Assembly: GCA_030741355.1 (NCBI GenBank)
Contig: JASLVM010000012.1
Location: 1 to 43,132, forward strand
DNA from: Candidatus Poseidonia sp.
Lineage (GTDB): Archaea > Thermoplasmatota > Poseidoniia > Poseidoniales > Poseidoniaceae
Reading direction: 5' to 3'
DNA length: 43,132 nt
The notes under the pieces are model-generated. The model ran no database searches. It had not been told where the DNA came from and worked only from the letters and a program-made list of their open reading frames with translations. A program made the translations under genes and the position numbers. This document shows positions 1 through 3,657 of the stretch, piece after piece. The stretch's first letter is position 1, and each line of letters begins with the position of its first letter.

Positions 1-1457
1 CGTCCAAAGGTGATGCCTGCTTTGCCATGGACCTCCGGTGCACGGTGGAGTTCTGTTTCGTGAACGGGCAGGCGTGTTCGCCCGTCGTGCGACTCCCAGT
101 GCACGTTGTGGATGATCTCTCCCAGCGGAAACAATTCTTGGAGAAGCGGCTTGTCGATTTCGTCCCTGCACGCTGTTTTGAACGATGCAAAAGCTTCTGA
201 GGGGACCTCTTGGAAGCCTTCGCCCTCCACCTGTCGAATATTGATACGACGGAGCAGCAAGCCTTCGCTTCGAATATCACGAAGCAAGGCCATGTTCATG
301 CCGTAGGTCGCTTCGGTCTCACCGTTCAGCCCGGCAATGAAATTCAGTCCGGGCAACAGTTTGGGCAACCCACGCTCACCCCGGACGCTGCCGTGTTTGT
401 TGATGAGTCGAATCGCCGTCTTGAGTTGGGCAGGGTCGCAGTTGAGCCAGTTTGCTTCGTGGACGCTGGGGTCGGCTGATTCCAAACCAAAGGACAGCAC
501 GGCCCCGTCGGAGAGCGTCTCAACCAGCGTCTTGGTGATGGCCTCGGAGGGCTCCATGTTCTCGGCGATGATGGACGGGTTGCCGTTGTCCGTGTGGAGG
601 ATACCAAGCCGCTCGTCTTCACGAAGTCCATGGAGCAACTTGGCGATGGGTTCAGGGTTTGGCACCGGGTATTCCAGTTCACGGACACCCTCGGCCATGT
701 AGGTGTAGGTGTCGGTCATGCCACCAAGGCGCACGTGATGGACACCCGCTTCATGGGCCAATCTCACTTCTTCGATGATGTCCTCGGGTGTCCGCCAAAT
801 CGGAACGCCTTTCTTGGGCTCGATGCAAAATTTGCACCCCCGCTTGTAGCGAACACAGCCCTGGTAGACCTCCACTTCGTAGGTGAGTGGCCCCGGCTGG
901 TTTTCGGTTCCAAGGTCGGGATGTTCGGAAACCGCTTTGCTCGCCGCACCGGCTTGTGCCCACGCCGTCCACTGCTCGGCCGTTCGGCGTTGATGTTTCC
1001 ATTCTCCGCGTTCAAGGAAGTGATGAAGAGTGGCGTCGGTGTCTTGGACAGCGAGGAACAAATTTGGCCGGAGTGGCGTCCAGCCTTGCTGCTTCCAACC
1101 TCGTATGGCCCAGCCGCCAAACAATGCAGGGGTGCCGTGGGGTAAGTTTCGGATAAGGGACTGGGTCTCCCTGAGAGAGATGGGCGTGCCACGGAGGTAT
1201 TTCCCCGGAACGACGGCACCCGCAATGCAGACCATGCCAAGGCAATTCTTCAGGCGTCGTTGAATTGATTCGGGGTCGTTTTTGAGGGCCTGGCGGTAGC
1301 GGTCAACGGTCAGGTAGTCGTAGTCGAGCCCGGCGGATTCCAGCACGCCGCAGACATAACGGATGTGAAACCCAACGTAAGGAGGTACACCAAACGCTGC
1401 AGGCTCGTCTTCGTAGCCGTCCAAAACCAACCAGCGTGGCTCGGACGATTCAACCAT
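1..1457 (-). CDS. Radical SAM protein (archaeal Fe-S oxidoreductase type), 3' end beyond window
   Basis: Manual reverse-strand translation is open from an ATG at 1457 to the window edge: MVESSEPRWLVLDGYEDEPAAFGVPPYVGFHIRYVCGVLESAGLDYDYLTVDRYRQ...YEVEVYQGCVRYKRGCKFCIEPKKGVPIWRTPEDIIEEVRLAHEAGVHHVRLGGMTDTYTY... Cys cluster CX6CX2C. Absent from the ORF track because it has no stop in the window. Confidence 0.85.
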   Translation of the reverse strand, partial: MVESSEPRWLVLDGYEDEPAAFGVPPYVGFHIRYVCGVLESAGLDYDYLTVDRYRQALKNDPESIQRRLKNCLGMVCIAGAVVPGKYLRGTPISLRETQSLIRNLPHGTPALFGGWAIRGWKQQGWTPLRPNLFLAVQDTDATLHHFLERGEWKHQRRTAEQWTAWAQAGAASKAVSEHPDLGTENQPGPLTYEVEVYQGCVRYKRGCKFCIEPKKGVPIWRTPEDIIEEVRLAHEAGVHHVRLGGMTDTYTYMAEGVRELEYPVPNPEPIAKLLHGLREDERLGILHTDNGNPSIIAENMEPSEAITKTLVETLSDGAVLSFGLESADPSVHEANWLNCDPAQLKTAIRLINKHGSVRGERGLPKLLPGLNFIAGLNGETEATYGMNMALLRDIRSEGLLLRRINIRQVEGEGFQEVPSEAFASFKTACRDEIDKPLLQELFPLGEIIHNVHWESHDGRTRLPVHETELHRAPEVHGKAGITFG

Positions 1458-1482: not shown

Positions 1483-2907
1483 TCAATCCTTCTTTGGACG
1501 TGGGCGTCGGTTGCGCTTCTTGCCGCCTTCGCCTTCTTCGCGGAGGGCTTGGAGCTCTCGTGCGGATTTTCCGCCGCCATCGCCACCTCGGTTTCCGCCA
1601 CGACCGCCTTTGCCACCCTTGGCTTTGGCGATGTCAACCTTGATCTTGCGTCCTTCGACCTCGCTGTTGTTGAGGGCAGAAACCACGGCTTCGCCCTTGT
1701 CTTTTTCAGCGATGAAGACGAAACCAAAGCCCTTCGCTTTGCCACCGGGTCCGGTGGCGAGGATGACCTCGTTCACCGTGGCATGGGCAGCGACCATGGC
1801 CTTGAGTTGGTCTTGGGTGGCAGAGAAGGGAAGGTTACCGATGTAGAGCTTGAGTCCTTCAGGCTCTTTGCGTTCTTTCCGCCCTTTCTTCTTGTCGTCA
1901 TCAGCGTCTCGAACACCGATGCGTCGGCCGTTGATTCGATGTCCGTCGAGAGCCTTGATGGCAGCGTCAGCCATGGATTTCTCGGCGTAGGTGACGAAAC
2001 CAAATCCTCGGTTCACGCCCGCATCGTCGGTCAACACAACACAGTCGGTCATGTCGCCGTGAGACTTGAAGAGTTCACTGAGTTCATCGGTGCCGACGTC
2101 GCGAGGCAGGCCACCGACGAAGAGCCGTGTGCCCGGAGCAGCGCGTTGGCGTCCACCGCCTCGGCCGCCGCCTTGACCTTCGAAACGGAAGTAGGTGCGC
2201 TCTCGACCGTCTTCACGCACATCAGCAGCGATGAAGGTGGCTCGTCCCGCAGGCCCTTTGGCAAACATGGCTTCAGCAGCGGAGCCCCAGCGCTTGCCGG
2301 AGTTGTTGAGAGCGCTTGCACCCTGGTCGAGTTCCGCCCATCCGGCGCCGTAATTGTCGGCAAGGGCACGGTAGGCTTGGTAGCCACAGGTCGGGCACTT
2401 GACGTTCCAGTCGCCATCGAGTTCGGCTTGAAGGGTATCGCCACATGGAGGACAGATGGCGTGCAGAACACCGCAGTCGTCTCGCTCTCGGAAATCAAGA
2501 CGAACGACCGGCTCGACCTCCTTGACGACGGCACGACAGACGTCACGTCGTCGTAGTGCATCGGAAGTCTGGTGCATAAAGCGGTCAACCAAACCGGTGA
2601 CGAAGAATTGACCGTAGAGGTGTTGAGGTTGAATGGAACCGGGTTTGCCCTCAACGGCCAAGATCATGGCTTCACCGTTCTTTTCGTTGAGTTTGACCAC
2701 TTCGCACAAGACCGTGTCGCCCACAACGGGTTCCACGATGGGTTTGGAGGGAGAGACTGAGATGGAGCCTTCGTTCACACGGACGTAGCCGACCACCGTC
2801 GAGATGATGTTGCCGTCAGCGAGGGATGTTCCTTCGCCGTGTTCGTGCTCGCCCTCTTTGGCGATGATGCTTCCGGGGGTGACGAGGCTCGCCGTCATGT
2901 TTCTCAT
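1483..2907 (-). CDS. csl4: Exosome subunit Csl4 (N-terminal region, S1-like domain, zinc ribbon) fused to two C-terminal RRM domains
   Basis: N-term VTPGSIIAKEGEHEHGEGTSLADGNIISTVVGYVRV... and VGDTVLCEVVKLNEKNGEAMILAVEGKPG (Csl4-like); CPPCGDTLQ...WNVKCPTCGYQAYR zinc ribbon; then RRM1 (RNP2 LFVGGL, RNP1 RGFGFVTY) and RRM2 (RNP2 LYIGNL, RNP1 KGFGFVFI) with RG/GG-rich linkers. The ORF extends to 2943 with a GTG start; ATG at 2907 or 2898 is more likely. Confidence 0.85.
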   Translation of the reverse strand: MRNMTASLVTPGSIIAKEGEHEHGEGTSLADGNIISTVVGYVRVNEGSISVSPSKPIVEPVVGDTVLCEVVKLNEKNGEAMILAVEGKPGSIQPQHLYGQFFVTGLVDRFMHQTSDALRRRDVCRAVVKEVEPVVRLDFRERDDCGVLHAICPPCGDTLQAELDGDWNVKCPTCGYQAYRALADNYGAGWAELDQGASALNNSGKRWGSAAEAMFAKGPAGRATFIAADVREDGRERTYFRFEGQGGGRGGGRQRAAPGTRLFVGGLPRDVGTDELSELFKSHGDMTDCVVLTDDAGVNRGFGFVTYAEKSMADAAIKALDGHRINGRRIGVRDADDDKKKGRKERKEPEGLKLYIGNLPFSATQDQLKAMVAAHATVNEVILATGPGGKAKGFGFVFIAEKDKGEAVVSALNNSEVEGRKIKVDIAKAKGGKGGRGGNRGGDGGGKSARELQALREEGEGGKKRNRRPRPKKD

Positions 2908-2994: not shown

Positions 2995-3657
2995 TCATTC
3001 ATCCGTTTCATGAGCCAGACGAGCGTCGCCATGCCGGAAAAAGCGCCAGCATTTCACATCGGTTGCGCCTTGGCGTTGTCCATGGTGGGCATAGGTGGGT
3101 GGGAGTCGAAAAGTCGTTCGAAGCACGATTTCACCTTCCCATCCTGCATCGATGGCCATCGGTTCGAGGTGGGTGGCTCGGTCGCTGTGAAGCACGTGAA
3201 TCGCCACCGCCTCCGAGGCGAAACCGACGTCCAAAAATGGGCGGTCCGCCCTCGCCCGTTGAACCCCCCAAGGGGGATTCATGACGATGATGTCCGGCCG
3301 TTCCAGGTCGAGTTCATCACCTCCAACATGGGCGTTCAGAATCGTGGCACGTCGTGATAAGGCATCGTCGAGGCCGTCGATGTTCTGTTGGAGGACGGCA
3401 GCGGCGTTTTCATCCGCTTCAACGAACACGACGCGTCCTGCACCGAGCATGAGTGCAGCGATTCCAAGAATGCCGTTTCCCGCTCCGAGGTCAGCCACGC
3501 ACCGTCCTTCCAACCCGTCGAGTTGGTCGACGGCGAGCATCCAATAAGCAGCCAAGTCCCCTTCCGTGGCGTACTGCTCCATGGACACATCCGTGCAGGG
3601 GTGCGGAATCAACTTGGACAGCGCGATGGCCAAGTGCTTTGGGCGCATTCGCCTCAC
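2995..3657 (-). CDS. METTL5-like N6-adenine RNA methyltransferase (predicted)
   Basis: SAM motif VADLGAGNGILGIAALMLGAGRVVFVEAD and catalytic NPPW (IIVMNPPWGVQ). Adjacent to csl4. GTG start overlaps the stop of the upstream zinc-ribbon gene. Confidence 0.8.
   Translation of the reverse strand: MRRMRPKHLAIALSKLIPHPCTDVSMEQYATEGDLAAYWMLAVDQLDGLEGRCVADLGAGNGILGIAALMLGAGRVVFVEADENAAAVLQQNIDGLDDALSRRATILNAHVGGDELDLERPDIIVMNPPWGVQRARADRPFLDVGFASEAVAIHVLHSDRATHLEPMAIDAGWEGEIVLRTTFRLPPTYAHHGQRQGATDVKCWRFFRHGDARLAHETDE

Follow-up and report, generated by a model that had tools for sequence, protein, structure and literature searches.

Fusion of the exosome cap subunit Csl4 to RRM domains across the archaeal order Poseidoniales

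Introduction

The specificity of the archaeal exosome is attributed to Rrp4, Csl4 and DnaG, and DnaG already provides RNA binding to the cap. A different route is known from the NEXT complex, in which RBM7 brings an RRM to the exosome as a separate adaptor that acts via a helicase complex. Archaeal Csl4 itself, as in Archaeoglobus fulgidus (AF0206; PDB 2ba1; model NF034126), is made up of an N-terminal domain, an S1 domain and a zinc ribbon.

The consequences of adding an RNA-binding domain to Csl4 have been explored with an engineered protein. Hou et al. (2014) attached the N-terminal domain of DnaG, which binds RNA, to the C terminus of Sulfolobus Csl4, on the reasoning that Csl4 is anchored to the ring by its own N-terminal domain (PMC4227792). 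The chimera showed poly(A) binding, and of the Sulfolobus exosomes compared, the one containing it was the quickest to degrade poly(A) and an A-rich tail; the fusion also altered substrate preference (PMC4227792).

Here we describe a natural csl4 gene in the marine archaeal order Poseidoniales that continues in frame into two RRMs. It was found in the window, by which we mean the whole stretch of 43,132 nucleotides that was analyzed (contig JASLVM010000012.1 of the Candidatus Poseidonia sp. assembly GCA_030741355.1). The three Csl4 domains and the conserved methyltransferase gene upstream are shared with other archaeal Csl4 loci, but 2ba1 (179 aa) and most Csl4 proteins of the sister order stop after the zinc ribbon, whereas the protein described here adds about 285 residues that comprise a conserved linker and the two RRMs. 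The added RNA-binding domains occupy the same place as in the engineered fusion (PMC4227792), the C terminus of Csl4; that protein, however, was a Sulfolobus laboratory construct with an unrelated RNA-binding domain, while the Poseidoniales fusion is natural, carries RRMs and coexists with DnaG. In open-access papers on Csl4 and RRMs in archaea, and on RRMs or the exosome in Poseidoniales, we found no earlier description of the fusion; subscription papers are mostly outside that coverage.

Results

Architecture of the fusion protein

Translation from the ATG at 2907 yields 474 aa. The preliminary description had placed the gene correctly but gave its length as 486 aa, which needs a GTG at 2943; in most relatives the start codon corresponds to the ATG at 2898. 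The features are collected in Table 1.

The N-terminal half of the protein is an archaeal Csl4. NF034126, the NCBIfam model for this family, matched residues 8 to 187 at 98.9 bits, with a whole-protein score above the curated cutoff of 90 bits. ECR1_N (Pfam) scored above its own cutoff, and the A. fulgidus structure 2ba1 aligned with residues 8 to 189 (E 9e-14). The protein thus has a Csl4/Rrp4-type N-terminal domain, then an S1 domain, then a zinc ribbon. RRM_1 (Pfam; cutoff 20.7 bits) scored 112.5 bits over the whole protein in two further stretches (72.9 and 47.6 bits), both with the RNP1 and RNP2 aromatics intact. The preliminary description had proposed both halves, and both assignments hold. 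Its mention of RG/GG-rich linkers was overstated: we found one short variable G-rich stretch (GGGRGGGRQRAA), a G/K/R-rich tail and few RG dipeptides.

An AlphaFold2 model built from 49 sequences had a pLDDT of about 80 in both RRMs as well as in the first two Csl4 domains (N-terminal and S1), a lower value in the zinc ribbon, and values mostly below 50 in the linker and tail. Because the pTM was only 0.36, the mutual placement of the domains in the model is undefined. When the model was used for a fold search of the PDB, the top match was 2ba1_A (Csl4), which was followed by the tandem-RRM proteins Sxl, HuD and HuR. These proteins and hnRNP A1, also high in the fold search, resemble the Poseidoniales protein in having a serial RRM pair with canonical RNP motifs, but common descent is unsupported beyond the RRM fold, and the RRM arrangement in the model is unreliable at this pTM.

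Table 1. Features of the csl4-RRM locus in the window
Feature	Position	Strand	Details
csl4-RRM fusion gene	1483..2907	minus	474 aa, stop codon included in span; ATG at 2898 also possible as start
Csl4 N-terminal domain	2728..2886	minus	aa 8-60; PF14382, NF034126, 2ba1; pLDDT about 83
Csl4 S1 domain	2482..2727	minus	aa 61-142; NF034126 and 2ba1 alignments; beta-rich in model
Csl4 zinc ribbon	2347..2481	minus	aa 143-187; C152/C155/C171/C174
Conserved linker, candidate interaction motif	2173..2346	minus	aa 188-245; 80% mean identity; pLDDT mostly <50
Short variable G-rich linker GGGRGGGRQRAA	2137..2172	minus	aa 246-257; alignment
RRM1	1897..2136	minus	aa 258-337; RRM_1 72.9 bits; pLDDT about 80
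RRM1 RNP2, LFVGGL	2107..2124	minus	F263 in 46/46
RRM1 RNP1, RGFGFVTY	1987..2010	minus	F302 and F304 in 46/46
RRM2	1624..1860	minus	aa 350-428; RRM_1 47.6 bits; pLDDT about 78
RRM2 RNP2, LYIGNL	1831..1848	minus	Y355 in 46/46
RRM2 RNP1, KGFGFVFI	1711..1734	minus	F394, F396 and K392 in 46/46
Basic G/K/R-rich C-terminal tail	1486..1623	minus	aa 429-474; mostly disordered; short conserved SRELxAxREE helix
Methyltransferase gene, upstream neighbor of csl4 (context only)	2995..3657	minus	78/80 named relatives
Radical SAM gene, downstream neighbor (context only)	3..1457, runs off window	minus	PF04055; 75/80 relatives

Constraint and the conserved linker

Purifying selection acts on every module of Csl4-RRM. 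In an alignment of 46 sequences, the RNP aromatics (F263/F302/F304 and Y355/F394/F396) and the zinc-ribbon cysteines (C152, C155, C171 and C174) were invariant, and dN/dS against six close relatives was about 0.00 to 0.12 in both RRMs. The least conserved Csl4 module is the N-terminal domain (46% mean identity; dN/dS of 0.11 to 0.19); since this is the domain that anchors known archaeal Csl4 to the ring, binding of Csl4-RRM to the ring is not guaranteed. The most conserved segment of the protein is the linker at residues 188 to 245 (80% mean identity), yet it is predicted to be unfolded. Apart from a single weak hit interrupted by a stop (E 1.5e-4), a profile of this linker retrieved only Csl4 genes of this order.

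The linker invites another reading, in which substrate selection is not the task of the RRMs (or, in the sister family, of the zinc finger and its single RRM). They would instead hold the exosome at a particular place, for example on ribosomes, on nascent transcripts or at a helicase, or work as an RNA chaperone, and the linker would be the main protein-docking motif. A segment that is both the best conserved and specific to the order suits protein-protein contact, and the related stand-alone RRMs belong to the bacterial Rbp type. The retention of DnaG, already an RNA-binding part of the cap, counts against the capture model proposed below, as the RRMs may serve another role. We nevertheless consider tethering or chaperoning unlikely: the invariance of the RNP aromatics in both RRMs suits RNA rather than purely protein contact, and a docking partner was not identified in this analysis.

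Exosome partners and genomic context

An Rrp4-Rrp41-Rrp42 gene cluster and DnaG are encoded in the same genome. Rrp41 scored above its curated cutoff; Rrp4 and Rrp42 scored below theirs, but these were the best models for genes that cluster with Rrp41. No Csl4 other than Csl4-RRM was found in the genome, a second match to the Csl4 model being best explained as Rrp4. Of the 80 named relatives, which are the best 80 loci of a profile search of genome contigs, 78 have a methyltransferase gene upstream of csl4 in the same orientation, and 75 have a radical SAM gene downstream. The methyltransferase-csl4 pair is also present at the short csl4 genes of the sister order and of other members of the phylum, which supports orthology of the fusion with ordinary csl4.

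Subunit-by-subunit identities indicated that the exosome subunits of the order have all diverged somewhat, not Csl4 alone. The DnaG profile match looked split in the order, and we considered whether the C-terminal domain of DnaG had diverged together with Csl4. We rejected this idea; because divergence spans the whole complex, we claim no special link between DnaG and Csl4.

The divergence of Csl4 raises the question of whether the fusion product has parted from the exosome and now acts as an independent RNA-binding protein whose Csl4 domains are incidental. Such a departure would fit the scores of the Csl4 core (about 73 to 128 bits in the order, versus 126 to 200 for full-length short Csl4 outside it), the status of the anchor domain as the fastest-evolving Csl4 module and the loss of zinc-ribbon cysteines in one genus (L020). 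It is very improbable, however, given that the protein is the sole Csl4 found in the genome and sits at the conserved csl4 locus, that Rrp4, Rrp41, Rrp42 and DnaG are all retained, and that the other exosome subunits of the order have diverged as well.

We also detected a third RNase PH-type gene in the genome of the window (L212:534-1370; G000:C39), which NCBIfam identifies as a bacterial RNase PH (TIGR01966, 242 bits; cutoff, 141.5). The extra gene was present in sampled genomes of both families of the order, while sampled members of the sister order and of the rest of the phylum had two RNase_PH matches only.

Distribution across the order

To survey the fusion, we compared the contig and open-frame lengths of Csl4 and RRM listings row by row, by eye, for 116 genomes of the same order. 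NF034126 matched in 115 of the 116 and an RRM in 114. The RRM shared an open frame with Csl4 in 111 of the 114 RRM-bearing genomes. Two of the three nonfused cases (G082 and G054) are contig ends; the third, an apparent split gene in G091 (L052), was rejected because of ambiguous bases at the break. In L169 and L186, RRMs that looked additional or remote were likewise rejected: both frames cross blocks of N, so scaffold gaps account for them. The fusion was also found at each of the best 80 loci of the contig search, all from the Poseidoniaceae/Poseidoniales lineage and among them a single-contig MG-II chromosome of 2.06 Mb (L134); that search speaks for this lineage and has no bearing on other archaeal phyla.

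These comparisons confirm that the csl4-RRM fusion is real and conserved across essentially the whole order; what the preliminary description had read from one genome is not peculiar to it, and separate genes or an assembly error, which we looked for in related genomes, are not the case. Although the source genome of the window is fragmented (127 contigs), the chance that an assembly or frameshift artifact joined two separate genes is negligible, as the fusion was seen independently in 111 genomes, in a single-contig chromosome and in several records not labeled MAGs, and the exceptions are accounted for by contig ends, runs of N and ambiguous bases.

Origin and remodeling of the fusion

The two families of the order differ in what follows Csl4. 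In the family of the window (f1; Poseidoniaceae, Marine Group II), Csl4 is followed by two RRMs. In the second family (f2), which is probably Thalassarchaeaceae, it is followed by a CxxC-x17-CxxC zinc finger and a single RRM (e.g., L033:1432-2706). The zinc finger lies between Csl4 and the RRM and was recognized by TIGR04272 (50.8 bits; cutoff, 36) and PF23477; a degenerate second RRM in this linker was rejected on that basis. In the sister order of the same class (f3), which is probably Marine Group III, Csl4 stands alone (frames of 185 to 235 aa in most genomes) and an RRM is encoded by a separate gene (frame of 85 to 105 aa). Other RRMs found in the phylum are also in short frames (81 to 158 aa).

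Apart from a few exceptions (e.g., G064), genomes of the order are without an RRM outside Csl4. G064 represents a divergent genus within the family; its locus, L020, no longer encodes all the zinc-ribbon cysteines of Csl4, and the genome has four RRM matches rather than two.

In a tree of 77 RRM domains (83 columns), in which the finer branching order is unsure, a branch with 98/98 support separated all the fused RRMs from stand-alone archaeal, bacterial and yeast PABP domains. For this reason, a single fusion event is the simplest history: one fusion in the ancestor of the order would have been followed by tandem duplication of the RRM in f1 and gain of the zinc finger in f2. Fusion by the joining of neighboring genes found no support, as csl4 and the RRM gene were not seen adjacent in the sister order: in those of its genomes in which we located the two genes, they lie on different contigs.

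Among NCBIfam models, the bacterial Rbp type, NF058537, scored best with the fused RRMs (100.2 bits for the whole protein; cutoff, 100). The stand-alone RRMs of f3 exceed this cutoff, and a stand-alone f3 RRM is up to 59% identical to a betaproteobacterial one. Bacterial Rbp proteins are small, stand-alone, single-RRM proteins; the Poseidoniales protein, with two RRMs inside a 474-aa fusion on an exosome subunit and a score that just reaches the cutoff, is not a member of that group. The suggestion that the RRMs are eukaryote-style is unsupported, because they score best with the bacterial model; moreover, the sister order and other parts of the phylum have stand-alone RRMs, and the fused RRMs form a cluster of their own.

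Discussion

Because the fusion is genuine, conserved and subject to purifying selection, and because the other exosome genes have been kept, an exosome with extra RNA-binding modules is the best reading of the locus. We postulate that Csl4-RRM is probably an exosome cap subunit of Poseidoniales permanently fused to flexible RNA-capturing arms. That the protein binds RNA, is built into the exosome and may prefer certain sequences is our inference. In this model, Csl4-RRM would be held on the Rrp41/Rrp42 ring by its N-terminal domain, with the S1 domain lining the entry pore. Reaching out on a linker of roughly 70 residues, the RRMs would catch single-stranded RNA and so enrich it near the pore, and such capture would shift which RNAs are degraded or tailed, and at what rate. 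With up to three Csl4 subunits per cap, an exosome might carry up to six RRMs.

We speculate further, and more tentatively, that these arms prefer particular sequences, so that substrate selection would be built into a core cap subunit instead of being delegated to separate adaptors, and that the arrangement was fixed once in the ancestor of the order and later remodeled, by tandem duplication in one family and as a zinc finger with a single RRM in the other. The likeness to RBM7 and the NEXT complex drawn in the preliminary description stands at most as a functional analogy, since there is no separate adaptor here and the RRMs sit in the cap subunit's own reading frame.

An entire order of abundant surface-ocean archaea has added RRMs to Csl4, while sampled relatives keep RRMs on separate small proteins or lack them. 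The Poseidoniales fusion is a natural counterpart of the engineered fusion that altered substrate choice, and it makes RNA choice by the exosome directly testable with recombinant Poseidoniales proteins. It points to the recruitment of RRMs into RNA decay outside eukaryotes.
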